38,723 bases of DNA from Candidatus Woesearchaeota archaeon (GTDB lineage: Archaea; Nanobdellota; Nanobdellia; SCGC-AAA011-G17; ARS1403): positions 1-38,723 of the forward strand of contig JAGVZI010000009.1 of NCBI GenBank assembly GCA_018302705.1. Direction: 5' to 3'. Positions within the stretch are counted from its first letter, which is position 1. Each line of letters begins with the position of its first letter. The notes beneath the pieces are model-generated. The model was not told the origin of the DNA. It saw nothing but the letters and a program-made list of their open reading frames with translations, and did no database searches. The translations under genes were made by a program, and so were the position numbers. This document shows positions 8,346-37,340 of this stretch, one piece after another.

Positions 8346-9439
8346 CAAAAAGAGATTATTATGAAATTCTCGGGGTGAGTAAAAATTCAGGCAGAGATGA
8401 GATTAAAAGAGCCTACAAGAAACTGGCATTGCAATATCATCCTGACAAGGGAGGCGATGCAGAAAAGTTCAAGGAGATCTCTGAAGCTTACGCTGTTTTA
8501 AGCGACGACAATAAAAAAAGCCAGTATGACCAATTTGGGCATGCAGGCTTTGACCAGAGATTCTCGCAGGAAGATATTTTTAGGAATGCAGACTTTTCAA
8601 GCATCTTCGATGAAATATTTGGAAATTCGGGATTCAGCTTTGGCGGAAATATTTTTGACACATTTTTTGGCAGGCAGAGATACAGGGGAGAAGAAAGGGG
8701 AGATGATTTAAGCCATGAAATCTCAATAGAATTTGAAGACGCAGTAAATGGAATTGAAAAAGAAATTAAAATCCCGGTCACAGAAGCATGCAATGCTTGC
8801 AGGGGATCGGGAGCAGAGAATGATGACTTTGAAACCTGCAGCGAGTGCAATGGCATTGGCCAAGTAAGAAAAACAAAAAGGACAGTATTCGGGGTTTTTT
8901 CTTCAATAAGCGTTTGCAGTGAGTGCGAAGGCGAGGGGCATATAATAAAAAACAAATGCAGAGAATGCAAGGGAGCAGGCACTATTTCAGAAATGAGGAA
9001 GCTGAAAATAAAAATTCCTGCTGGCATTGATAATGGCAACCAAATAAGATTAAAAGGAAAAGGTAATGCAAACATAAAAGGAAAAAACCCGGGGGATTTA
9101 TACGTCATTGTCAAAGTAAAAAGCCATGAATTTTTCAGAAGAGACGGCTATGATCTTCATCTTGAAACTCCAATTAGCTTCTATCTAGCCGCTGCAGGAG
9201 GAGAAATTAAAGTCCCCATATTGAATGGAAGTGCAACGTTAAAAATCCCAAGCGGGACAAAAAGCGGAACAGTATTCAGGCTTAAAGAAAAAGGAATTAA
9301 GTATCTTAACGAAGATGAAATTGGAGACGAATACGTAAAAGTTGCAATTGAAGTCCCTAAAAGTTTGAACAGCAAACAGAAAAAATTGTTGCAGGAGTTT
9401 GATAGCAGCTTAGAGAAGAAGAGATTTGGATTGTTTTAG
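8342..9439 (+). CDS. dnaJ: DnaJ (Hsp40) co-chaperone, full-length type I
   Basis: 365 residues. J-domain at about 4-68 with the catalytic HPD (YHPDKGG), which stimulates DnaK ATP hydrolysis. A Gly/Phe-rich stretch (FGNSGFSFGGNIFDTFFG) follows. Then comes the zinc-binding domain with four CxxCxGxG repeats: CNACRGSG, CSECNGIG, CSECEGEG, CRECKGAG. The C-terminal substrate-binding beta domains follow (RLKGKGNANIKGKNPGDLYV). Start supported by GAGGAAGG just upstream and ATGA overlap with the preceding ORF. Last gene of the heat-shock operon. Confidence 0.96.
   Translation: MTKRDYYEILGVSKNSGRDEIKRAYKKLALQYHPDKGGDAEKFKEISEAYAVLSDDNKKSQYDQFGHAGFDQRFSQEDIFRNADFSSIFDEIFGNSGFSFGGNIFDTFFGRQRYRGEERGDDLSHEISIEFEDAVNGIEKEIKIPVTEACNACRGSGAENDDFETCSECNGIGQVRKTKRTVFGVFSSISVCSECEGEGHIIKNKCRECKGAGTISEMRKLKIKIPAGIDNGNQIRLKGKGNANIKGKNPGDLYVIVKVKSHEFFRRDGYDLHLETPISFYLAAAGGEIKVPILNGSATLKIPSGTKSGTVFRLKEKGIKYLNEDEIGDEYVKVAIEVPKSLNSKQKKLLQEFDSSLEKKRFGLF
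9364..9384 (+). repeat. 21-bp direct repeat, copy 1 (in dnaJ 3' end)
   Basis: A perfect 21-bp match to 10522-10542, beginning TTTGAACAGCAAAC. Both copies read NSKQK in frame, here in DnaJ and there at the start of the 104-residue ORF. The pair brackets the MNT-HEPN genes. Confidence 0.8.
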
Positions 9440-9568: not shown

Positions 9569-10159
9569 ATGGAAAAAGATACTATTTCATTTATTTTAAA
9601 CTCTGAAAACAGGAAAAAGATAGTCAAGATTTTATTTGAATATCCTAAAAGGCAATGGAGCTGCTCATCTATAGAAGAATTTACAAAGATTTCACATGCC
9701 ACTGTTTTTAGAACCTTACAAGGGTTAAAGGATTTTGGAATTTTGAAAAGTATTAAAATAAATAGGAAAGATATTATCTATGAATTTGTGGATTCCCCCT
9801 TTTCTAAAGAAATAAGAAAAATGCTTAATATTGAAAAAACCGCCATGAGAAAGATTGGGCGAGATTTCATAAATAAGATTAAATCAAAGGAGATTTATTC
9901 CGCAATTCTATATGGTTCCAGCATTAAAGGAGAAATAAAACCAGAAAGTGATATTGATATATTAATTATCCTCCATAAACATGATTCCATTTTAGAAAGC
10001 AGGATATTTGATTTTGCTTCTAAATCTTCATCAAAATTAAATAAAACAATATCTCCTGTTATTATGGATAGAAAAGAGATAAAAAAAGAAAAAAAAGGCC
10101 AATTTATTAGATCTGTTAAACAAAATATGGAGGTAATTCATGGAAAGGACCCATTTTGA
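9569..10159 (+). CDS. Winged-helix / MNT nucleotidyltransferase fusion, antitoxin-type
   Basis: 196 residues. N-terminal winged helix-turn-helix (about 10-75; CSSIEEFTKISHATVFRTLQ followed by GLKDFGILKS) fused to a minimal nucleotidyltransferase (about 108-185). The latter has the signature YGSSIKGEIKPESDIDILII, i.e. GS plus a DxD metal-binding pair. In MNT-HEPN systems the nucleotidyltransferase neutralises the HEPN RNase by AMPylating it. The fused DNA-binding domain suggests this protein also autorepresses through the tandem palindromes directly upstream. Its end overlaps the HEPN ORF by 20 bp, consistent with coupled translation. Confidence 0.82.
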   Translation: MEKDTISFILNSENRKKIVKILFEYPKRQWSCSSIEEFTKISHATVFRTLQGLKDFGILKSIKINRKDIIYEFVDSPFSKEIRKMLNIEKTAMRKIGRDFINKIKSKEIYSAILYGSSIKGEIKPESDIDILIILHKHDSILESRIFDFASKSSSKLNKTISPVIMDRKEIKKEKKGQFIRSVKQNMEVIHGKDPF

Positions 10160-10526
10160 ACAGGCTAAATTATGGTTGGAAGGAGCGAAATATATTGCTG
10201 GATATGAAAGTCAAGACAGGAGCAAGTATAATGTTGCGGTTGCTAAGTTGGTTCATTCGGTTATAAAGGCAAACGATGCTTTGACTTATAAATTTCTAAA
10301 TACAATTGCAAGAAAACACGATGATGCTAGGAGGTTATTTGAAGACCTTGTTAAAAGAAATTTTATAAAATCCGAAGATTCCAGTTATAAGGAGATAATA
10401 CAAGATGCTATAAATAACAAGGCTAAAGCAGAGTATAGGATCAGCTTTTTTAGTAAAGAGGATTTTGAAAGTTTTAAAAGGAAAGTTGAGAGATTCGTGA
10501 ATATGGCTAAAGGATACATAATTTGA
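10140..10526 (+). CDS. HEPN-like protein, probable toxin partner of the MNT gene
   Basis: 128 residues, all-helical by composition. Its order after an MNT gene with overlapping ends, size, and a helix carrying 'AVAKLVHSVIKANDALTYKF' agree with HEPN proteins, which often act as RNases. The strict catalytic R-x4-6-H motif is not convincing: candidates are ARKHDD and the His in LVHSV. It may therefore be a non-canonical or inactive HEPN. It overlaps the next ORF by TTGA. Assignment rests mainly on the neighbour and general helical pattern. Confidence 0.62.
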   Translation: MERTHFEQAKLWLEGAKYIAGYESQDRSKYNVAVAKLVHSVIKANDALTYKFLNTIARKHDDARRLFEDLVKRNFIKSEDSSYKEIIQDAINNKAKAEYRISFFSKEDFESFKRKVERFVNMAKGYII

Positions 10527-10542
10527 ACAGCAAACAGAAAAA
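10522..10542 (+). repeat. 21-bp direct repeat, copy 2
   Basis: Perfect match to 9364-9384 in dnaJ, 1158 bp away. It provides the TTG start and first codons of the third cluster gene. Confidence 0.8.
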
Positions 10543-10837
10543 TTTGGGCGGTTTTAAATTACATTCTATTTTATTAGGAAAAGCATTTTTTAAAGCAGAT
10601 TCTGAATCCCAAGAAGGTAATGAAGATGGGATTGTGGATAATGTAGAATGGAGCAAGGCTTTAAATCGAATGGGCTATAGAACTATGGAGCATGAGGTTA
10701 CAGAACTATCAGGCCATAATAATCCAAGAGAAGAATTAGAAAGATTAGTTGCAGATATGAGAACAAATCCGGATTATTTAAGTGTGTCGGATGTAATACC
10801 AATGTCAAGATTAGAAGCTTATTTTTCTGCTAATTAA
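10523..10837 (+). CDS. Third gene of the MNT-HEPN cluster, unknown
   Basis: 104 residues starting at TTG 10523, which overlaps the HEPN stop as TTGA. The first codons coincide with a 21-bp sequence duplicated from dnaJ (NSKQK). The remainder (FKLHSILLGKAFFKADSESQ, WSKALNRMGYRTMEHEVTEL) has no recognised motif. 'EDGIVDNVEWSKALNRMGY' resembles an EF-hand-like or helical segment, but a calcium site cannot be claimed. The TTG start could be wrong. It may be an accessory gene of the module or a gene whose 5' end was replaced by the dnaJ-derived sequence. Confidence 0.5.
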   Translation: MNSKQKNLGGFKLHSILLGKAFFKADSESQEGNEDGIVDNVEWSKALNRMGYRTMEHEVTELSGHNNPREELERLVADMRTNPDYLSVSDVIPMSRLEAYFSAN

Positions 10838-10948: not shown

Positions 10949-10996
10949 ATTTTTTCTTTGGACACGATTTCTTTTTCCAAAAAAGAAAGTGTGATA
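10949..10996 (+). repeat. 48-bp dispersed inverted repeat, copy 1
   Basis: A perfect reverse-complement match to 36792-36839, both intergenic. The unit contains an internal hairpin: ACAC-GA-TTTCTTTTT / AAAAAGAAA-GTGT. In this copy GGACACG (10960-10966) also pairs with CGTGTCC at 11017-11023, extending the possible structure. No ORF or known insertion sequence is present. It may be a terminator-like or MITE/REP-like element. Confidence 0.8.
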
Positions 10997-11092
10997 AGGA
11001 AGGCAAACGGAAACTGCGTGTCCGTGTTCCTAAAAAAAGCAAAAACAAAGGTTTAAAAACAGAAAATTATATTCTTGAAAATAGAGTTTAAG

Positions 11093-12427
11093 ATGATTGA
11101 AGTTTGCGCAGTGGGCGGTTACAGCGAAATCGGGAAAAATATGACTGCCGTCAAGATTGACGACGAGGTTTTAATTTTTGACATGGGTGTTTTTCTGCCT
11201 GCTATAATAAATTATGAAGAAGAGGGGAAGGATAGAAGCGCTTTAGATAGAGAGGGGATGATTGACCTTGGGGCTATTCCTGATGACTCTTGCATTGATG
11301 ACTGGAAGGATAAAGTCAAGGGAATTTTAGTTGGGCACTGCCATTTAGACCATATAGCTGCTATTCCTTATTTAGCTGAGAGATACAAAGCGCCTATATA
11401 CGGGAGCCCTTTTACAATTGAAGTAATAAAGCGGATGCTGAGTGATGAAAACAGGAAAATAAGGAACCCCCTGAAGGCTGTGAACATAAACTCAACTGTC
11501 AGGGTCTCTGACAAGATAACTGCGGAGTTCATCAATATAACGCATAGCACCCTGCATGCGACTATAATTGCAGTTCATTGCAGATACGGAACCATTGTTT
11601 ACACCAATGACTTTAAATTTGACAATCACCCTGTTCTTGGAAAAAAACCCAATTTAAAAAGGCTTAGGGAACTAGGGAAAGAGAATATGATTCTGCTGAT
11701 TTTAGACTCCCTGTATGCTGATATTGAAATGAAAACACCGAGCGAGAAGGTTGCCAGGGAATTGCTGAGGGATGTAATGCTGGACACTGAGTGCAGGGAT
11801 AGCTTGATTATTGTAACTACTTTCGCTTCCCACCTCCCAAGATTAAAAAGCGTAATTGATTTTGCACATGTACTGCGAAGAAAGGTTGTTTTTCTGGGAG
11901 AGAGCATGATGAAATATACAATGTCTGCTGAGAAATGCAAACTTGTAAACTTTAGCAAAAAAGTTGAAATAATCTCTTATGCAAGGCATATTAAAAGAAA
12001 ATTAAATGAGATTGAAAAGAATAGAAAAAAATACGTTGTTGTAGCTACAGGCAATCAAGGCGAGCCAGATTCTGTTTTGAGCAAGATGCTAGATGGAAGG
12101 CTACCGTTTAAATTCGAGCCAGCTGACCACGTTATTTTCTCAACTAAAGTGATTCCAGACCCGATTAATATAGCAAATAGGAATAGCATGGAAGAGAAGT
12201 TGAGGGAGAGAAGAGTAAGGATTTTTACAAACATCCACGTTTCAGGACATGCCAGCCGAGAAGACCATAGGGATATCCTGAAAATCTTAAAGCCTAAATA
12301 TATCATGCCTGCACATGATGGGAGAAAAAAACAATTGTTTATGAAAGAGCTTGCAATTGAAGAGGGCTGGAAGGAAGACAAGGTTTTGCTGATGGACGAC
12401 GGGAAAAAAGTTTCGTTAATTTTATAA
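11093..12427 (+). CDS. Archaeal RNase J (beta-CASP metallo-beta-lactamase)
   Basis: 444 residues from MIEVCAVGGYSEIGKN; the ORF-track start (a TTG at 11075) adds six residues. The metallo-beta-lactamase motif GHCHLDHIAAIPYL gives the two-metal site. Further motifs are the histidine in 'NITHSTLHATI', the aspartate in YTNDFKFDN, the beta-CASP insertion (about 180-370, 'VVATGNQGEPDSVLSKM'), and C-terminal 'HVSGHASREDHRDILKILKP' with 'PAHDGR'. This is an RNase J of the archaeal type, a 5'-3' exoribonuclease for mRNA decay and rRNA maturation. A TATA-like AT-rich stretch at about 11060-11072 precedes it. Exact in vivo targets unknown. Confidence 0.92.
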   Translation: MIEVCAVGGYSEIGKNMTAVKIDDEVLIFDMGVFLPAIINYEEEGKDRSALDREGMIDLGAIPDDSCIDDWKDKVKGILVGHCHLDHIAAIPYLAERYKAPIYGSPFTIEVIKRMLSDENRKIRNPLKAVNINSTVRVSDKITAEFINITHSTLHATIIAVHCRYGTIVYTNDFKFDNHPVLGKKPNLKRLRELGKENMILLILDSLYADIEMKTPSEKVARELLRDVMLDTECRDSLIIVTTFASHLPRLKSVIDFAHVLRRKVVFLGESMMKYTMSAEKCKLVNFSKKVEIISYARHIKRKLNEIEKNRKKYVVVATGNQGEPDSVLSKMLDGRLPFKFEPADHVIFSTKVIPDPINIANRNSMEEKLRERRVRIFTNIHVSGHASREDHRDILKILKPKYIMPAHDGRKKQLFMKELAIEEGWKEDKVLLMDDGKKVSLIL

Positions 12428-16029: not shown

Positions 16030-19000
16030 TTATACAACAAACCTATTATCAAAATTACAGACACCATTTTCACAACCATTTTCACAGTTATATTTAGTTA
16101 TTCTTCCTATCACCCCATTACTGTCACAATAGCCTTCAAGTAAAAGATTCTCCTGTTCCGGCTGTCCTGGTGATGGAGATTGATTATCTTTTAAGCAAAT
16201 ATCTTCAAATACTCCAAAGAGAGGTTCATTTGTGATGGAACCCTTTTCATAATAATCCACACCTCCATCGCTATCACTGCATGTTTCACAACTACCGCAA
16301 TAATTACAATCTTCATATAAATCTAAATTTCCAGTAATCTCAATTAGATATTTATTAATTAATTTAACATTACCCACCATAATTCTACATTTGGCACTTA
16401 CATCTCCCATTATATCCCCATTAGAAATGAACTGAGCAACTACTCTTCTTCCTTTAGCAGAATTTATTGTGCTTAATGGTAGCAACTTTTGATCACCAAT
16501 ACTGATACTCTCCTTAACCTTTAAAGATATATTTTTAGACAAAATTACTAAGGTTGCAGAAGAACTTCTATCAGGATCATTGGGATCATAAAATGTTTCT
16601 CTATTTTCTATTTGAACACCATTAATAACTTTTGTTGATCTAGGGTATATTGTTTCAATAACACCATCAACATTTATAATAACAACCCCCCCTGACCCAA
16701 CTCTTTCTAACTTAACTATATTTTGCTCCCCAATAAATAAATCATATAAACCCAGATAGCAAGCCCCTTCAATGAACCCAAAGAATAAATATTCCTTTCC
16801 ATTTAATAAATTGACAATATTATCCTCAATTAGATTTTCTCCAGTAGCACATACCTCACTATAATCATTACAATCTCCTAAAAAGGTACCATCAACACAT
16901 GAGAAACCCGAAGGATTCCTTTCTCCAGGATGAACCCTATCTTTATTTATCCTTATGCCATTATTCTGTACATTTCTTTGAAACATAGGCCATTCTGAAT
17001 TATCTAAAGGATTATATGATGATTCCAAATCAAACATAAAAATATATCCGTCTCTTGTTCCAACAACTATTTCGTTATTTCCGTCTCCATCAATGTCATC
17101 AATTACAGGTGATGCAATGGCGCCATATTTATTATCTCTAACAACTTTTGGCCACCCATTAATTAAGCTTCCATCCAGATCCCACGCATAAATCTTATCT
17201 TTATTTGGAGGATATTGGATTATTTCTAATTCATCGTCATTATCAACATTCCCAGCAATAGGAGAAGACCTACCTGGCATAAAACTAATCAAAAGTACAC
17301 TCCTACCAGGTACATTCCATCTATTTAATATTCCATCATTACTAAAAACTAGAATTCCGTCCCCATGACTATCCCCAATAACAACTTCTAAGTTCCCATC
17401 TCTATCAAAATCTGCAACAGAAGGCGATGCATACTTGGAGTTTCCATTTCCAAAAGGACCATATTTAATACGCCCATTTTTATTTAACACATATGAATAG
17501 CCATCTACATTAGAGATAATCTCTAAATGCCCATCTTCATCCAAATCTGCTACAACTGACGAAGAGATATCACAAAAGGTAGTATCGATGGTAAATGGCC
17601 ATCCCCTCTTAACTGGCCCATTAGGATTATTCTTCCCGTCCCCATTGAATATGTATACTTTACATTTCTCTTCATTTTTATTATAAACACCGCCCAAAAC
17701 AATTTCCTTTAATCCATCATTATCTACATCAACAACATTAGGAGTGCCTTCAATAAAATCAGAGATGTAAACTGGCCATCCTTCTTTTATATTACCATTA
17801 TTTTCAAAAACATATATCCCTCCCCCTTTCAATCCTTCTTCATCATACCACCGAGACTCATAAGCAACAACTATTTCGTTATTTCCGTCTCCATCAATGT
17901 CATCAATTATAGGGTGTGAAGGATGGTCACCCTCGCTAACATCTAGATCTAATAAAACATCTCCATTATAATCAAGTATCTGTAATCCTCGGCTTGAAGC
18001 AACTAAGATTTCATTTTCTAAATCATCATCAAGGTTCCCTATAGAAACAAGAGTCTCTCCGACATTATGTTTCTTAGGCCATCCTGCCTTAATCTCTCCC
18101 TCGCTATCAAACACATAGACATATGTAAATGAAGTTACTATAACCTCTTTACTTCCATCTAAATCAAGATCGCTAACATGATTAGAATAGATGCTATCTA
18201 TACCGCCTTCTAATTTTTTGCCCCAGCCTTTATGAATTTCTGTATTTACAAATATTCGAGAAAAAGAATTAATAAGATTGCCATTTTTAGAAACCTCCAG
18301 TTTAAGGGTATATGTTGCACTTTCTAAATGTTCAGCATAAAATGTCGCCAAAATATCTTGCCCATCTGATTGACTACCAGAGCTTATTTCTATCCATGTT
18401 TCAGGATATAGCCCACTACCGTAATAAACCTTATAGCTATCACCATTTGCAATACCAGTAATTACAGTATTATCAACAACATACTCTCCATTTTGAGGGG
18501 ATGTTATTTCAGACACGGCATTAACAGGATTAAAATCTAAAGCACTTTTAACATTAATTCTTCCAACCCCGATATATTCCTCACTTATAGTCGGGTCAGA
18601 ACTCTGCGTCAGAATTTGCTTAATTTGTTCTGGATCATAATTTCCATTAGAAAGCAATAAACCAACAACACCAGCAACATAAGGAGCAGCCATTGAAGTT
18701 CCAGAATAAGATTCATAACTCCTCTTAATTCCATCAGAAACCTCTATTCTGTATCTATATGTTCCTTCTTTAAGACGGCTTTTAATAGAATCATAGAAAT
18801 CACTGCCCTCATAGAGTATAATTATCGGGATTTCAGAAATAACACCTGAAGGCCAACCCAATACCTCAAAGCTGACCCCTAAAATGACAATACCAACTGC
18901 TCCTTGATTAATCGCTATATTAGTCTTTTCATACAAACTTATTTCCCCTTCATCCAAAAAAACAATTTTATCTTTAGCATCTATTCCAGAATAATCTCCT

Positions 19001-20415
19001 AATCTCCCTAATCCCGCATATACTGCTTCAGATTCTTCTATCTTTATAGGAGAAAGATCTATATTTGGACATGAAAGGATATACTCAATATCCCCCCACC
19101 CCGTTCCACCTCTCTCCCTAAATTTACATTCCCTATTGACCGTAGTTGGGATTGTGCTTATTATATTAACACCGGGAGCAGCAATATCTACCCAATAGCC
19201 ATAACTTGAAAAGTCTGCTTTATCATCATTTAAATCAGTCGCAGCAACACTAATAACATTTTCATTGCCTGCAGGATATTCTATAGAGTCATGACCTAAA
19301 TTTCCAGCAGCTGCAATCAGAACAACCCCTCTTTCATGAGCATAATTAATAGCATCGTTAACAATGTCTGAATAACCTCCTCCAAAGCTCATACTGATAA
19401 TATCTGCTTCATTATCTGCAGCATATCGTATTGCATTAGCGATACTAACTATATCCAAAGAGCCCACTTTCCCTATATCGCCATTTTCATACTGTAATTT
19501 TAAAGAAAAACCAGCCCTCAAGGGCATTATTTTACAATCATGGCAAACTCCTGCTATCCCTATGTTATTATCTGCGACACCCGCTGCAATTCCGGCAACA
19601 TGCGTCCCATGACCATAAAAATCCGTAGGATCATTATCTATTATACTATAATCTTCTCCTTTCACCAAACAGCTTCCATCTAAACATAAATTATCTGTAT
19701 TTAAGTCGACAAAATCATATCCTACAATATCATCAATATAATTGTTGTTATCATCATCAAGATTATTATACGGAATTTCATCTGCATTTCTCCATATATT
19801 TTCAGCTAAATCCTCATGATTGTAATCTACTCCAGAATCAATTATGGCTATTACTACATTAGAATTTCCTTTTTCTCTATCCCACCCTAGTTCAGCATCT
19901 GTATTTTTATGGGCCCACTGCTCATTGTAACGAAGATCATTTGGAATAAAAGAGGTATAATAAAGAAAGTTAGGTTCAGCATATTCAACATCATCAATCA
20001 ATTCATATTCTCTAGCTAAAATCTCCAAGTCAACATCATTATCAAATTTAAGTTTATAAATTCCTCTGACTTCTTTCTCAGGATCATAAACTATCTTTAG
20101 CCTAACGCCCATTCTTTGGAAAAATCCTATTTCACTCGTTTCAAAAATAGGGGTTATGCTATCTACTTTATATTTTCTATTTAGCTCTTCAAATGGAGAA
20201 GCTCCAAAAATGGCGCCCCCAGTAATAGAGTTATCAATTTCACGCTTAAGTTTAACAATCAACTCCCCTTTTACATATTTTGGAAAATTATTTCCTATAA
20301 CCTCAGAATCTTCATCGAATTTTTGGGCTACAATACTCTCATTAAAACCTTGAGAAATAGCACTCTGAACAAATAAAAGTAATACTATTAAAATCAAACC
20401 TCTTTTTAAATACAT
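16030..20415 (-). CDS. Giant secreted subtilisin-like protease with PA insert and FG-GAP repeats
   Basis: 1461 residues. Signal peptide (GLILIVLLLFVQSAIS). Propeptide-like region to about 160. The S8 peptidase domain has the complete triad: D193 (AIIDSGVDYNHEDL), H269 (YGHGTHVAGIAAG) and S574 (SGTSMAAPYV). A protease-associated (PA) domain is inserted at about 430-560. After a short beta domain (about 640-730), a run of FG-GAP/VCBS-type repeats (about 735-1130; DDIDGDGNNEIVV, VADLDEDGHLEI) should form a calcium-dependent propeller. The C-terminal 300 residues include a cysteine-rich patch (CNYCGSCETCSDSDGG). It probably degrades or processes proteins outside the cell. No C-terminal membrane anchor is seen. 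Confidence 0.93.
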   Translation of the reverse strand: MYLKRGLILIVLLLFVQSAISQGFNESIVAQKFDEDSEVIGNNFPKYVKGELIVKLKREIDNSITGGAIFGASPFEELNRKYKVDSITPIFETSEIGFFQRMGVRLKIVYDPEKEVRGIYKLKFDNDVDLEILAREYELIDDVEYAEPNFLYYTSFIPNDLRYNEQWAHKNTDAELGWDREKGNSNVVIAIIDSGVDYNHEDLAENIWRNADEIPYNNLDDDNNNYIDDIVGYDFVDLNTDNLCLDGSCLVKGEDYSIIDNDPTDFYGHGTHVAGIAAGVADNNIGIAGVCHDCKIMPLRAGFSLKLQYENGDIGKVGSLDIVSIANAIRYAADNEADIISMSFGGGYSDIVNDAINYAHERGVVLIAAAGNLGHDSIEYPAGNENVISVAATDLNDDKADFSSYGYWVDIAAPGVNIISTIPTTVNRECKFRERGGTGWGDIEYILSCPNIDLSPIKIEESEAVYAGLGRLGDYSGIDAKDKIVFLDEGEISLYEKTNIAINQGAVGIVILGVSFEVLGWPSGVISEIPIIILYEGSDFYDSIKSRLKEGTYRYRIEVSDGIKRSYESYSGTSMAAPYVAGVVGLLLSNGNYDPEQIKQILTQSSDPTISEEYIGVGRINVKSALDFNPVNAVSEITSPQNGEYVVDNTVITGIANGDSYKVYYGSGLYPETWIEISSGSQSDGQDILATFYAEHLESATYTLKLEVSKNGNLINSFSRIFVNTEIHKGWGKKLEGGIDSIYSNHVSDLDLDGSKEVIVTSFTYVYVFDSEGEIKAGWPKKHNVGETLVSIGNLDDDLENEILVASSRGLQILDYNGDVLLDLDVSEGDHPSHPIIDDIDGDGNNEIVVAYESRWYDEEGLKGGGIYVFENNGNIKEGWPVYISDFIEGTPNVVDVDNDGLKEIVLGGVYNKNEEKCKVYIFNGDGKNNPNGPVKRGWPFTIDTTFCDISSSVVADLDEDGHLEIISNVDGYSYVLNKNGRIKYGPFGNGNSKYASPSVADFDRDGNLEVVIGDSHGDGILVFSNDGILNRWNVPGRSVLLISFMPGRSSPIAGNVDNDDELEIIQYPPNKDKIYAWDLDGSLINGWPKVVRDNKYGAIASPVIDDIDGDGNNEIVVGTRDGYIFMFDLESSYNPLDNSEWPMFQRNVQNNGIRINKDRVHPGERNPSGFSCVDGTFLGDCNDYSEVCATGENLIEDNIVNLLNGKEYLFFGFIEGACYLGLYDLFIGEQNIVKLERVGSGGVVIINVDGVIETIYPRSTKVINGVQIENRETFYDPNDPDRSSSATLVILSKNISLKVKESISIGDQKLLPLSTINSAKGRRVVAQFISNGDIMGDVSAKCRIMVGNVKLINKYLIEITGNLDLYEDCNYCGSCETCSDSDGGVDYYEKGSITNEPLFGVFEDICLKDNQSPSPGQPEQENLLLEGYCDSNGVIGRITKYNCENGCENGVCNFDNRFVV
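17061..17105 (-). repeat. 45-bp repeat within the FG-GAP region, copy 1
   Basis: Identical to 17865-17909 and encodes the repeat core DDIDGDGNNEIVV. Other FG-GAP units in this gene differ at DNA level, so this exact pair points to recent duplication or gene conversion. Confidence 0.85.
17865..17909 (-). repeat. 45-bp repeat within the FG-GAP region, copy 2
   Basis: Exact match of 17061-17105, 804 bp away in the same orientation and reading frame (804 is divisible by 3). Confidence 0.85.
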
Positions 20416-25703: not shown

Positions 25704-27961
<2,258 letters not shown>

Positions 27962-27978
<17 letters not shown>

Positions 27979-30376
27979 AATTCAATTGATTGAGAATGAG
28001 ATGAAGAAGAGTTACATAGATTATGCTATGTCGGTTATTACAGCGAGGGCATTGCCTGATGTTCGAGATGGGTTGAAGCCAGTGCATCGCAGGATTCTAT
28101 ATGCCATGTATAAATCAAAATTATTCCATGACAAGCCCTTTAGAAAATCCGCTTACATAGTTGGAAGGATTCTGGGCAGCTTTCACCCGCATGGAGATGC
28201 TGCTGTTTATGATTCTTTAGTCAGGCTAGCTCAAGATTTTTCTATGAGATACAAGCTTGTAGACGGCCACGGTAATTTCGGCAGCATTGACGGATTCCCC
28301 CAGGCTGCTATGCGCTACACCGAATGCAGATTAGCCAAATTATCAGACGAGATGATTAGGCACATTGATGAAGACACAGTAAAATTTGTTCCCAATTATG
28401 ATGGCAGCACAAAAGAGCCGACTGTTTTGCCGAGCCTGTTTCCAAATCTTTTAGTTAATGGGAGCACTGGAATCGCCGTCGGGATGGCAACTAGCATTCC
28501 CCCGCATAATCTGAAAGAAAGCGTAAATGCAGTTATTGCAATGGTTGATAATCCAGATATGGCAATTGATGAATTAATAAAATATTTACCCGGCCCTGAT
28601 TTTCCTACAGGGGGGATAATTGCTGGAACTTCCGGGATAAAAGAAGCATATGAAACTGGAAAAGGCAGGATTATTGTATTAGCCAAAGCCCAAGTTGAGG
28701 AGCAGAAGGGAAATAAAAAAATAATTATTTCTGAAATCCCTTATCTAGTTAATAAAACGATGTTAATAGAAGAGATTGCTGATTTAATCAGGAATAAAAG
28801 GATTGAAGGGATCACTGACCTGAGGGACGAAAGCGATAGAAAGGGGATGAGGATAGTCATTGAAATTAAAAACGGGTATAGCCACGAGGTTATTTTAAAC
28901 CAATTGCAGAAATACTCTCAATTAAGAAGCACTTTCGGCGTGATTATGATTGCGCTAGTTGATAACGAGCCGAAGATCTTGAACTTGAAAGAATTAATCC
29001 AGTTTTATATAAAACACAGAAAGGAAGTTACTGTGAAGAGACTTGAGTTTGAGCTTGAGAAGAGCAGGATGAGAGCCCACATTTTGCTTGGGATCAAAGT
29101 TGCTCTGAAGCATATCGATGCTGTTGTTGCAACCATTAAAAACTCAAAAGACCCAGCTGTTGCCAAACAATCACTTATTGAGAAATTCAAATTAAGCGAG
29201 AAGCAAAGCGAAGCCATACTTGAAATGAGGCTGAGCAGATTAACATCACTAGAAACTAGCAAGATAATTGAGGAACATGATAATTTGGTCAAGAGAATAA
29301 ATGAATTAAAGGATATACTTGCAAGCGAGCAGAAGATATTTGGAATCATAAAAAATGAATTGACAAAATTAAGAGATGAATACGGGGATGAAAGAAGGAC
29401 AAGGATTGAAGGAGAGTATAAAGCGCTTGAAAGAGAAGACTTAATCGAGGAAGAGAACGTTGTAGTTACTGTTACTCACTCAGGCTATATCAAGAAACTC
29501 CCGCTAGATACTTATAGAAACCAGGCCAGAGGTGGGAAGGGGATGATAGGAACAGAGACAAAAGAAGAAGACTTTGCAGAGGAATTATTTGTAACCTCGA
29601 CGCATAACCACATTTTATACTTCACCAATTTAGGAAGATTATACTGGCTGAAGGCTTATGAAATACCGACTGCCAACAGATACAGCACTGGAAAGGCGAT
29701 TGTCAATCTGCTTAGATTGAAGGAAGGAGAAAAGGTAACTACAATGATGCCGATCAAAGACTTTGGCAAGGGCTATTTGATTATGATAACAAAAAAAGGG
29801 CTTATTAAGAAAACACAATTACATTATTTCTCCAACCCGAGAAGCAGCGGGATTAATTGCGTGAATTTGCGAGATAAAGACGAGCTGGTCAAAGTGCTGG
29901 CTACTGATGGCCATAAAAAAATGATAATTGCAACTAAGAAAGGGATGGCGGTCAAGTTTGACGAGATAAATGTTAGGCCGATGGGAAGAAATGCTGCCGG
30001 GGTAAGAGCAGTCAGGTTAAGGGGCGGAGACGAGGTTGTTGCAATGGATTTCGCAGAAGATAATTTGGCCTTGCTGACTGCATGCAGGAATGGCTATGGA
30101 AAGAAATCAAAAATAGGAGATTATAGGCTGATTAGAAGGGGCGGGAGCGGCGTGATAAATATTAAAAACCTCGTTAGAAACGGGGACGTCATCGGCGCCC
30201 TTGCCGTCGACGAGGAAGATGATGTTATCTTCATAACTGAAAAAGGAATTGTTATGAGAACCAAAGTAAAAAATATTTCTACAATCGGGAGGAACACTTC
30301 CGGGGTTAGGTTAATTAAATTAAACCCGGGAGATAAATTAAAGAGCATTGCAAAAGTTGCGAGCAATGGCGAATAA
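27962..30376 (+). CDS. gyrA: DNA gyrase subunit A
   Basis: 804 residues, DNA-cleaving subunit. YAMSVITARALPDVRDGLKPVHRR signature, HPHGDAAVYDSLVRLAQDF, and catalytic Tyr in QAAMRYTECRL (about 118-128). Coiled-coil gate domain in the middle. The C-terminal beta-pinwheel begins with a GyrA-box-like NQARGGKG, needed to wrap DNA for negative supercoiling, so this is gyrase rather than topoisomerase IV. Six blade-type repeats follow (for example MIIATKKGMAVKFDE, VIFITEKGIVMRT). Overlaps the receiver gene. Confidence 0.97.
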
Positions 30377-30912: not shown

Positions 30913-30945
30913 TTATTCAATCAGCTCTCCAACGCCGATTAAATG
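30913..30945 (-). pseudogene. Displaced fragment of the aIF2-gamma 3' end
   Basis: 29 bp (30917-30945) are identical to 32273-32301, the last codons of the aIF2-gamma gene (HLIGVGELIE then stop), here with TAA instead of TGA. It sits without any upstream coding context, just downstream of the DUF2283 gene on the same strand. It marks a past duplication or recombination junction. The rest of the 30812-30957 gap shows a short unsupported minus-strand frame only. Confidence 0.8.
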
Positions 30946-32268: not shown

Positions 32269-33507
32269 TCACTCAATCAGCTCTCCAACGCCGATTAAAT
32301 GCCAGCGCGCTCCGACTCTTCTTGAGATTGCAAACCTGTCGTTATTTGATGCTACAACTGGAAGCCTTAAACTTAAAGTGATGATATTTTTTGAGGTGTC
32401 TGTTACTTGGCCAAGAGTTACTGCCGAGTTTACATTTATCATTAATAACTCCCCCTGCGTTATTGGAACAACCTCTACTTCTTCTTTAACTCCTACAACT
32501 CTCTTGATCAATTTTGGTTTCAGCCTTAGCTTTCGAAATGTTTTCGGCAATTTTCCTGAAGAACCTGCAAGATTTCCTGCCAGGTTATCTGATTTTACAA
32601 TTGCAGGGTCGAGCTCTGTCAGGATTCCTAAACTGCCTCCTGGAGTTATTTCCTTAAACTGCTCATTGCCAGACATGATGGCAACTATCTTTGTTTTTAC
32701 AGGCTTGTAATCGCTTTTTTCATCCAGCTTTATGCCCGGGGCTATTTCAATTTCTTGCCCCTGCTGCAATCTCCCCTGCTTTAATGCGCCTCCTAAAACT
32801 CCCCCGACCAATGCCTCTGGATTCGCACCCGGCCTGTTAATATCAAATGACCTTGCTATGAGCATGATTGGCTCTTTTTCCAGGTTCCTTTTAGGCGTCT
32901 TGAGATTTTCCTGGATTGCTTCCACCAGATAATTTATGTTAATATTGTGCTGCGCTGATACGGGAATTACCAGGGCATTTTCTGCAATTGTCCCCTTCAC
33001 AAAATTTTTTATCTGATTATAGTTTTTTACAACTTCTTCCTTGCCGACTAAATCAATCTTGTTTTGCACGATTATGATATCCTTTATTTCAATTAATTCT
33101 AAAGCCATAAGGTGCTCGCGGGTTTGGGGCTGGGGGCATTGCTCGTTGGCAGAGATTAATAACAGCGCTGCATCCATGATTGCTGCTCCTGAAAGCATTG
33201 TCGCCATTAATGTTTCATGACCTGGGGCGTCTATGAAGGAGACTTTTCTTAAGACTTCATACTTTTTATTTTCTTTTTTTGCTTGCAGCTCTGTCGAATA
33301 CCCATCTTTTGTCTTTACAAAAACTGCGTCTGCATACCCAAGCCTGATTGTAATGCCCCTCTTAATTTCCTCAGAATGAGTGTCTGGAAACTTTCCTGTT
33401 AAGGCCTGAACTAAAGTAGATTTCCCATGGTCTACATGACCTATCATCCCTATAGACATCTCCGGCTGCAGATGTTCTTTTTCTTTCTTTTCTTTATTTT
33501 CTGACAT
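32269..33507 (-). CDS. Translation initiation factor aIF2, gamma subunit (zinc knuckle lost)
   Basis: 412 residues, GTPase that brings initiator tRNA to the ribosome. G-motifs: GHVDHGKSTL, switch with ERGITIRLGYAD region (EIKRGITIRLGYA), DAPGHE, NKID (QNKIDLV), and SAQ. aIF2-gamma-specific 'SIGILTELDPAIVKSDNLAG' and C-terminal 'RVGARWHLIGVGELIE'. Unusually, the zinc-binding insert between GYAD and SFIDAPGHE, which normally holds four Cys, is here VFVKTKDGYSTELQAKKENK without cysteine. The gene is away from its usual rpo7-eS24 neighbours. Confidence 0.95.
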   Translation of the reverse strand: MSENKEKKEKEHLQPEMSIGMIGHVDHGKSTLVQALTGKFPDTHSEEIKRGITIRLGYADAVFVKTKDGYSTELQAKKENKKYEVLRKVSFIDAPGHETLMATMLSGAAIMDAALLLISANEQCPQPQTREHLMALELIEIKDIIIVQNKIDLVGKEEVVKNYNQIKNFVKGTIAENALVIPVSAQHNININYLVEAIQENLKTPKRNLEKEPIMLIARSFDINRPGANPEALVGGVLGGALKQGRLQQGQEIEIAPGIKLDEKSDYKPVKTKIVAIMSGNEQFKEITPGGSLGILTELDPAIVKSDNLAGNLAGSSGKLPKTFRKLRLKPKLIKRVVGVKEEVEVVPITQGELLMINVNSAVTLGQVTDTSKNIITLSLRLPVVASNNDRFAISRRVGARWHLIGVGELIE

Positions 33508-35005: not shown

Positions 35006-36721
35006 TCAAACCCCCCACAAAGGATATTTTCTTCTCTTGATTAATGAGATTTCCTTCAAAAGCTGGATTTCTGATGGGTTTAAATAGTTTTTCATTTCCT
35101 TCAGCTTGCGAAAATCATCTTCAGGAATGTCTACATACAGTATTGAATTTTCAAATATCTGCCTACCGACTGTAACGCCGGGCAATGAAACCGCGGCCTG
35201 CTTCCCCTGCTCAACCCTCTGCATATTCTCCCCCTCAACCTGAATGCTTTTAATTTTTGTCAGCGGCCTTCCATTTTCATTCATCAACGGATAGTCTGCA
35301 AGAATACACCCCGAGAGAACTTCAACGCCAAGAATTGCGGGATTGCTCTGCCTGAAAACAGTCCCCGGCAGGACGATTATTTTTCCAGGGCGCACTGTAT
35401 TTTTTAATTTTTCCAGCTCAATTTTTTTTATTTCATTCCCCTTCCATTCCAGATAATCGTCTATTATTTTATAAATTATATTATGATTAATTATTTTTAT
35501 GCTGTTGCTTTCAAGCGCTTTGACATTAAAAGAGAGCACTGCTTTGTAGATGGAATTTTCCTCTGCTGATGCCTCAGCTATGTCTGTTTTGTTTACCCCC
35601 CCCAAAGATGCCTTCTTAATCGGGACTTTATTCTCCTTCAATAGGGAGGTGAGCGCTTCCAGGCTGCCGAGAGAATCTGCTTTAACTATAACCCCGTCTT
35701 TGCCTGTTTCAATCAGCACCTCTTCAACTTCTTTTTGGATCTCTTTTTTTATTCTGTCTTCATTGCCTTCATCTGCAACTTCAAATGGCATCCCTGCAAA
35801 AATTTCTTCAGCTTCCTTCAGGATTATTTTTACAGTGCATGCGGCTGTTACTTCGTCAACAGAAACCAGCTTTTTGTTATTTATTGACTGCTCCAGCAAG
35901 GTTCTCACTTTGGTTGTTATCGGCTTTTCCAGCCCTGCAATAATAACCTCGTCATTAACCCTTATCTTCCCGTCGTAAATAATGGCATCAATAGCTTTTC
36001 CAAACCCCTTCTCTTCTTTAATTTCCAATACAACCCCTTTTGCTGGCTTGTTCACATCGATGATGAGCTTGTCTTCCATGAATTTCTGCGCCAAGCCAAC
36101 TATAACTAATAACAACTCCGGAATTCCCAGCTTAAGCTTTGCTGATGTAGGGACTATTGCTATCTTTTTTGTATAGTCTTCAATGCGGTCAAACCTTTCC
36201 GAATCAAAATTATACTCTGTTAATTTCCCAACAATGCTATAAACCCTCTTATCTATCTCCTGCCTGACTTTTTCTGATTGCGAGCTTATTGTTTCCATTA
36301 ACTGCTTATCCTTTGGATTAAACCCAGGAACTAAATCTATTTTGTTTGCTGCGATTACAAATGGAGTTTTATTATGCTTCAGAATCTCGATGCACTCCAC
36401 TGTCTGCGGCTTTATCCCCTCATTAATATCAATAACAAGAACTGCAATGTCTGCCAGACTGCCTCCTCTTTTCCTTAAGTTTGTGAAGGATGCATGCCCA
36501 GGAGTATCGATTATCAATAATCCTGGAATCTTGATCTTGTGCTTGTAATTTCCTATTATGTCTTCAATCAAGGAAAATGGAACATTAATGGCATTAATGC
36601 ATTGAGTAATTCTCCCTGCTTCTTTCTCTACTATATTTAATCCTGTTATAGTTTCAACTATCTGGGACTTGCCGTGATCCACATGCCCGATTATAGTGCA
36701 AACTATGCTCCTCAATGTCAT
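35006..36721 (-). CDS. Translation initiation factor aIF5B (IF2-like GTPase)
   Basis: 571 residues, promotes subunit joining. G1 GHVDHGKSQIVE, G3 DTPGHASFTNLRKRGG, G4 ANKIDLVPG, G5 region PTSAKLKLGIPELL. Domain II beta barrel (GVVLEIKEEKGFGKAIDAII), domain III (VIVKADSLGSLEALTSLLKE, the eIF5B motif), and domain IV (ILGVEVLSGCI). It lacks the long N-terminal extension of eukaryotic eIF5B, as usual for archaea. First gene of the aIF5B-eS6-orphan operon. Confidence 0.96.
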   Translation of the reverse strand: MTLRSIVCTIIGHVDHGKSQIVETITGLNIVEKEAGRITQCINAINVPFSLIEDIIGNYKHKIKIPGLLIIDTPGHASFTNLRKRGGSLADIAVLVIDINEGIKPQTVECIEILKHNKTPFVIAANKIDLVPGFNPKDKQLMETISSQSEKVRQEIDKRVYSIVGKLTEYNFDSERFDRIEDYTKKIAIVPTSAKLKLGIPELLLVIVGLAQKFMEDKLIIDVNKPAKGVVLEIKEEKGFGKAIDAIIYDGKIRVNDEVIIAGLEKPITTKVRTLLEQSINNKKLVSVDEVTAACTVKIILKEAEEIFAGMPFEVADEGNEDRIKKEIQKEVEEVLIETGKDGVIVKADSLGSLEALTSLLKENKVPIKKASLGGVNKTDIAEASAEENSIYKAVLSFNVKALESNSIKIINHNIIYKIIDDYLEWKGNEIKKIELEKLKNTVRPGKIIVLPGTVFRQSNPAILGVEVLSGCILADYPLMNENGRPLTKIKSIQVEGENMQRVEQGKQAAVSLPGVTVGRQIFENSILYVDIPEDDFRKLKEMKNYLNPSEIQLLKEISLIKRRKYPLWGV

Positions 36722-36791
36722 ACAATTAAAAACAGGAATTTGATTTTTAAGGGTTGCGGTGAGAAAAAATTAAAACTTTTAACCGCTTCGC

Positions 36792-36839
36792 TATCACACT
36801 TTCTTTTTTGGAAAAAGAAATCGTGTCCAAAGAAAAAAT
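36792..36839 (-). repeat. 48-bp dispersed inverted repeat, copy 2
   Basis: Perfect reverse complement of 10949-10996. It lies between the start of aIF5B and the end of hicA. It includes the same internal hairpin but lacks the extra GGACACG/CGTGTCC arm of copy 1. Confidence 0.8.
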
Positions 36840-36907: not shown

Positions 36908-37132
36908 TTATACTAGTTCCAGGAAACCTTCCCTTGTTAGCTTAGATTGACGAATAATTTCAAGGAGGGTCCCTCTATCAATCTCCTTATGTAATGGAAC
37001 CACCAAAGCGATGGTTCCTTCTGTTGTTTCTCTTTTCATAATAACATGACTTCCTTTCTGCCTTACAGAAATAAATCCAGCTTTAGAAAGAGCTTTAATC
37101 ACTTCTTTGCCCGATACCCTGGGGAGTTTCAT
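36908..37132 (-). CDS. hicA: HicA family mRNA interferase toxin
   Basis: 74 residues. SGKEVIKALSKAGFISVRQKGSHVIMKR is the HicA dsRBD-like fold with the catalytic His29 (GSHVIM). 'VVPLHKEIDRGTLLEIIRQS' is the conserved second half. HicA cleaves mRNA and tmRNA. Its start lies 38 bp inside hicB, in the antitoxin-first order, opposite to the textbook hicA-hicB order but common in many genomes. Confidence 0.93.
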   Translation of the reverse strand: MKLPRVSGKEVIKALSKAGFISVRQKGSHVIMKRETTEGTIALVVPLHKEIDRGTLLEIIRQSKLTREGFLELV

Positions 37133-37340
37133 ATCCTTTAACCTCGAAACTTGTAACTAAAATACCCTCAGAGCTAATTCCCTCAGGCAATCCCATCTCT
37201 TCTATATATAATTCTGTGGCTTCCTTAAGATTGGCTAATGCCTTTTCAATTGTGTGCCCCTGACTAACTACATCAAGTTCAGGACAAAGAGCTACAAATT
37301 GGTTTTCTCCTTTCTTTATTATCGCTGTCAGTGCTTTCAT
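37095..37340 (-). CDS. hicB: HicB family antitoxin
   Basis: 81 residues. Partial RNase H-like fold with FVALCPELDVVSQGHTIEKALANLKEATELYIEE. There is no C-terminal ribbon-helix-helix or HTH, so it is the minimal form and may not bind DNA itself. TATA (TTTATAAATT on the minus strand, 37361-37370) sits 21-30 bp before the ATG. First gene of the hicB-hicA operon. Confidence 0.92.
   Translation of the reverse strand: MKALTAIIKKGENQFVALCPELDVVSQGHTIEKALANLKEATELYIEEMGLPEGISSEGILVTSFEVKGYETPQGIGQRSD

Follow-up and report, generated by a model that had tools for sequence, protein, structure and literature searches.

The two copies of a perfect 48-bp inverted repeat lying 26 kb apart in a 38,723-nucleotide stretch of a Candidatus Woesearchaeota genome (hereafter, the window) belong to a multicopy family of structured intergenic elements of about 90 bp. 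The family is real, structured and so far undescribed, and it comes from a clade of archaea that has been little studied; as a repeat it is of an ordinary, known kind, and only the family is new. We hold with moderate confidence that the element is a clade-specific, dispersed, REP/MITE-like and probably formerly mobile structured repeat, which commonly marks the boundaries of accessory cassettes.

The repeat pair and the element around it

The segment at 10949-10996 on the plus strand (copy A) is the exact reverse complement of 36792-36839 (copy B, minus strand), with 48 of 48 bases identical, a match for which a base-composition model gives an expected number of about 3e-19 in the window. Both copies lie between open reading frames; the original prediction was right about the inverted identity and about the non-coding nature of the two loci. 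The inverted match stretches to 54 bp at 96% identity (arms 10949-11002 and 36786-36839). The hairpin proposed within the repeat was borne out for the plus strand of copy A (-14.3 kcal/mol, z -2.65, with 2 of 200 shuffles folding as well), the reverse strand giving a weaker fold (-8.3, z -1.1), and copy B folds on the minus strand at -11.4. The features of the two copies, and the gyrase genes between them, are as follows.

10949..11002, plus strand: hairpin 1 of copy A, holding the reported 48 bp (10949-10996), with a U-tract, a GGACAC/GTGTGA internal loop and a TTTCTTTTT/AAAAAAGAAA stem
11008..11026, plus strand: hairpin 2 of copy A, ACGGAAACTGCGTGTCCGT, a double change relative to the usual ATGGA/TCCAT
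10951..11039, plus strand: whole element of copy A, matching covariance model R1 with 96 bits
36786..36839, minus strand: hairpin 1 of copy B, holding the reported 48 bp (36792-36839)
36778..36793, minus strand: tail of copy B, TAGCGAAGCGGTTAAA, fused directly to hairpin 1
25710-27593: GyrB, between the two copies
27962-30376: GyrA, between the two copies

The interval had been described as including gyrase and tRNAs; the gyrase genes are there, together with a single tRNA (tRNA-His). It also holds, at 16030-20415, a 1461-aa subtilase with FG-GAP repeats and a 49-bp internal repeat at 98%.

The initially reported 48 bp belong to hairpin 1 of the longer element. Besides this long hairpin and a U-tract, the element has a second hairpin (ATGGAAAACnnnGTTGTCCAT), and a tail, CAGCGAAGCGGTTAAA, is present in many copies. 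Its long form has the sequence TTTTTCTTTGGACACGATTTCTTTTTCCTAAAAAGAAAGTGTGAGAGGAAAGGCAAATGGAAAACnnnGTTGTCCAT, with the tail, where there is one, coming next; copy A in its full extent continues to about 11039. Hairpin 2 is missing from copy B and from some other copies, in which the tail joins hairpin 1 directly, and the copy orthologous to copy B in a congeneric genome (G005, locus L054) has it. Hairpin 2 occurs in variants with compensating changes, for example ATAAGA...TCTTAT and ACAAGA...TTTTTGT. In the alignment, 98.7% of cells are paired compared with 56-68% in slid controls, and double changes affect 6 pairs against 1.1 in shuffles; since the double changes are few and come partly from single sequences, they support the fold and do not measure its age. 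The sense strand is predicted to fold better than its complement in all 16 copies compared, with both RNA and DNA parameters, which suggests that the element works as a single strand, of RNA or of DNA, and not as a symmetric protein-binding palindrome. Some copies stand alone; others form tandems or inverted pairs that face outward. Some single elements have a weak GGACAC..GTGTCC terminal pairing, and composite units carry inverted element ends, one such 240-bp unit occurring twice in G005 with 92% identity. The tail was also considered as an independent, order-wide motif, an idea that we rejected, as it is enriched in G000 (the genome of the window), G004 (sister genus) and G005 only and elsewhere occurs at about the control rate.

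Taxonomic range and conserved positions of the family

The genome of the window (G000) is a draft of 851 kb in 34 contigs, probably a metagenome bin, in which a DNA-level search recovered seven clear copies. A covariance model built from 16 long copies finds, at E<=0.01, 11 copies in this genome, 23 in its congener G005, which we infer to be JACPIN01 (NC_groundwater_441, Candidatus Woesearchaeota), and 16 in G004 of the sister genus, apparently JACOZQ01 (NC_groundwater_209, also Candidatus Woesearchaeota). Across the other 100 genomes of the order, matches were marginal or absent in almost every case, and in a class-wide sample only 5 of 281 genomes match at E<=1e-4 (G000, G003, G004, G005 and G058). 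The match in G058 falls within a stretch of 2.5 kb that has 99.6% identity to a G005 contig, and it is probably mis-binned. This shared stretch (L139 on contig C71 of G058, L168 on contig C1 of G005) measures 2518 bp between genomes of different families, the probable explanation being a mis-binned or chimeric contig.

Every copy examined is intergenic with a near-identical core, and the same core is found at 87-96% identity in another species and another genus, so that in copy number and placement the family is a multicopy short non-coding repeat, as MITEs are. What had been reported as a pair is thus two copies, as stated, of a dispersed family and not an isolated pair. The other possibility raised at the outset, many divergent copies of a known element, is half borne out: the copies are many and divergent, but they match no element already known. 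An Rfam search of the window returned a tRNA as its sole match and nothing at the elements even at E<=1, and a known structured RNA family was rejected on that result; the exact core had no match in IMG/VR, which speaks against a viral origin. The literature on DPANN MITEs, on Woesearchaeota intergenic repeats and on MITEs carrying toxin-antitoxin genes yielded general papers only.

For several copies the position is shared between two or three genomes, as would be expected of a functional sequence and equally of an old insertion. Upstream of RNase J the element is found in G000 and G005, with a remnant of hairpin 2 and tail in G004; the RNase J promoter region is recognisable in G003, G006 and G007 and the element is absent there, indicating that it is a lineage-specific addition and dispensable to that promoter. 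G000 and G005 have in common a copy upstream of aIF5B and tandem copies upstream of rpl21e, and G004 and G005 a copy upstream of a cold-shock gene. Filled and empty sites are also seen in the rpoA2-L30e gap, with the element in G004 and G005 and none in G000, and after SepF, where G004 has the element together with a response-regulator gene and G005 lacks the element. The RNA polymerase A'' gene itself is about 470 codons longer in G000 and G004 than in G005, matching the G005 gene in two pieces (L173 5105-7684 and L172 11144-13708, against L166 8739-9899), and the extra codons are a probable intein.

These observations bear on the original prediction that perfect identity implied recent mobility, gene conversion or strong function. 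The kind of explanation broadly stands, as this is a multicopy structured element; "recent" does not, given the 87-96% identity of the core elsewhere and the orthologous copies. With a near-invariant core and copies at orthologous loci, the perfect 48-bp identity does not date the window copies; it reflects the conserved core and need not involve recent movement. More generally, perfect identity of two repeats within one genome can stem from a conserved family instead of recent movement. The suggestion that the pair could invert the intervening 26 kb found no support. Gene order in G000, G004 and G005 has no trace of inversion between the two window copies, the order DnaJ, variable segment, RNase J being the same in all three, and we therefore reject the inversion on the conserved order across the left copy. 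aIF5B and its downstream genes are collinear between G000 and G005. For homologous recombination to be efficient, 48 bp is a short length.

Mostly core genes on one side, accessory genes on the other

The genes flanking the two window copies are listed below.

9569..10159, plus strand: HTH-nucleotidyltransferase (MNT), half of a probable toxin-antitoxin module, 5' of copy A
10140..10526, plus strand: HEPN-like partner of the MNT protein, a weak match below the curated cut-off
10523..10837, plus strand: orphan open reading frame between the MNT/HEPN pair and copy A
11093..12427, plus strand: RNase J (beta-CASP), core gene 3' of copy A
35006..36721, minus strand: aIF5B-like translation initiation GTPase, core gene 3' of copy B
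36908..37132, minus strand: HicA toxin, 5' of copy B
37095..37340, minus strand: HicB-like antitoxin, a weak match below the curated cut-off

Core genes account for 18 of the 27 neighbours on the 3' side, where hairpin 2 and the tail lie, versus 4 of the 25 on the opposite, 5' side (Fisher p=3e-4), the classes having been assigned by us from annotations after seeing the data. Both window copies fit this polarity, copy A having RNase J on one side, with a TATA-like promoter between copy and gene, and the HTH-MNT/HEPN genes and orphan frame on the other, and copy B standing between aIF5B and HicA/HicB. The association of the repeat with toxin-antitoxin genes is suggestive: in G000, G004 and G005 together, 3 of the 5 HicA genes located away from contig ends have a copy within 1 kb, where about 4% of the genome is that close to one (p ~6e-4, from a small sample), and MNT nucleotidyltransferase genes show, in our reading, a weak enrichment around copies (a few of 41). 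Cassettes between outward-facing copies in G005 hold HicAB and DUF433-DUF5615, and in G004 a response regulator lies between such copies, the second end being diverged. In G000, contig C15 carries a HEPN-MNT pair between two direct copies.

Direct repeats also bound small modules in these genomes. The HTH-MNT/HEPN module of the window is bounded by a 25-bp direct repeat with one mismatch (9364-9388 and 10522-10546), a piece of DnaJ 3' coding sequence repeated after the HEPN gene. A 29-bp direct repeat of the aIF2-gamma 3' end (30917-30945 and 32273-32301) bounds a 1.3-kb module with a DUF4258 (BrnT-like) gene, two DUF2283 genes and a CYTH gene; it resembles an att duplication, and an integrase is absent. 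Further direct repeats of 22-46 bp (L167 6478/7604, L170 4147/4880, L173 9519/10873, L236 1140/2378) enclose modules that include an NYN RNase, a MazE-like antitoxin, HEPN-MNT and a nucleotidyltransferase gene. Among the direct-repeat pairs in the roughly 260 kb examined, 5 of 7 bound RNase or toxin-antitoxin modules, and none of 23 control loci has such a direct repeat of at least 18 bp.

Past mobility, rival readings and known systems

We hypothesise that the element, one strand of which is predicted to fold into the two hairpins, began and dispersed as a non-autonomous mobile element. A recombinase that can no longer be recognised here would have copied it in trans, and the element would now be largely fixed and vertically inherited, its copies commonly marking junctions between core genes (hairpin-2/tail side) and accessory, often toxin-antitoxin, genes (hairpin-1 side). 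The past mobility and the single-strand substrate are inferred; the data show directly the family with its structure, copy numbers and taxonomic limits, the orthologous positions held in common, the filled and empty sites and the neighbouring genes. Past transposition in trans would account for the dispersal, the intergenic bias, the composite 240-bp units and the lineage restriction. Y1 genes were considered as the source of the enzyme and rejected as partner: they occur in two of the three element-rich genomes (1 in G000, 2 in G005, 0 in G004), none is flanked by the element, their end hairpins are different, as in the IS200/IS605-type gene of G000, and the 16 copies of G004 occur there in the absence of any Y1 gene. 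The Y1 family was the one searched for a parent transposon with these ends, and it gave none. Neither a target-site duplication nor a fixed target tetranucleotide was seen by eye, the intergenic DNA being too diverged between species to fix exact junctions.

The second reading, appreciably less probable than mobility, is that selection maintains the element as a cis-acting RNA or a signal for transcription, a terminator or insulator halting read-through between accessory genes and core operons; the two readings may both hold. Such selection would account for the recurrent placement and for the sense-strand fold, and it is compatible with the U-tracts on both strands alongside hairpins, with a strand-specific structure rich in G-U pairs, with intergenic positions that are 5-75 bp away from stop codons or immediately precede TATA-like boxes, and with copies kept at orthologous loci while the genes on the 5' side change. 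However, orientation relative to 3'-side core genes is weakly biased (12 versus 5, p=0.07), RNase J does without the element in three genomes, and an exact common core of about 40 bp exceeds what a terminator needs. A more speculative variant of mobility, to which we give little weight, is that the element forms the end of a transposase-less archaeal cassette, its hairpins being recognised by a putative recombinase that would insert small modules such as toxin-antitoxin genes, hairpin-2 end outward, beside essential genes.

Slightly less probable still is an upstream promoter element (an activator site) of housekeeping genes forming an information-processing regulon. The element does lie upstream in sense, near the promoter, of 12 of 17 core genes on the 3' side (RNase J, aIF5B, rpl21e, rps8e, PGK, NusG, MCM, CspA, L7Ae, RpoH, psmB and L30e, some of these names being assigned by us from sequence), but about five cases are antisense, 0-17 bp past a core-gene stop codon (rps7, rpoA2, SepF, CCA enzyme), and most ribosomal genes lack it. 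We regard as improbable that copies act as portable homology, landing sites for circular toxin-antitoxin cassettes that integrate by homologous recombination and leave direct repeats. This would suit the HEPN-MNT pair on C15, flanked by direct copies (a 46-bp repeat) between rps7 and aCPSF1, and the other toxin-antitoxin modules, at whose edges neighbouring sequence recurs as direct repeats of 22-34 bp; against it, many copies are solo or in inverted pairs, and 46 bp is short for such recombination.

Integron attC-like recombination sites are very improbable. The element resembles attC in its single-strand folding and its position beside small accessory genes, with scattered small cassettes holding toxin-antitoxin genes, and archaeal integrons are on record (PMC9668308), but it has no R''/R' core pair at its ends, its start TTTTTCTTTGG not being complementary to its end GCGGTTAAA, and copies are scattered in both orientations without an array. 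An assembly artefact, conceivable in a draft bin of 34 contigs, has a negligible chance of being the explanation, as flanks differ for all copies and independent genomes carry orthologous copies.

In small DPANN genomes the accessory genes, and toxin-antitoxin modules above all, change although recognisable mobile elements are few, and a clade-specific structured repeat at core/toxin-antitoxin junctions offers a handle on that change or on the transcriptional separation of core operons from their neighbours. As a REP/MITE-like repeat, the element can be set beside several known systems. Bacterial CGTC-tagged palindromic repeats are dispersed palindromes without a dedicated transposase (PMC3733652), of which none was found here either, whereas the element is archaeal, longer, of other sequence and without CGTC at an end. 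TIMEs are Tn3-derived inverted-repeat miniature elements, of which composite forms have inverted ends around small passenger genes (PMC4133298). Our family differs from MITEs and TIMEs in that the single element is polar, not symmetric; no target duplication was seen by eye at the flanks, and no parent transposon was found among the Y1 genes; like them it would be non-autonomous, and its inverted ends around small passenger genes recall composite TIMEs. From REP/REPIN sequences with their RAYT (Y1) transposases it differs in its length of about 90 bp, its two distinct hairpins, the lack of an element-flanked Y1 gene and the lack of a terminal GTAG, a tetranucleotide conserved at neither end in alignments A2 and A3, while it shares with them the short, palindromic, intergenic multicopy hairpins that occur singly or as inverted pairs.
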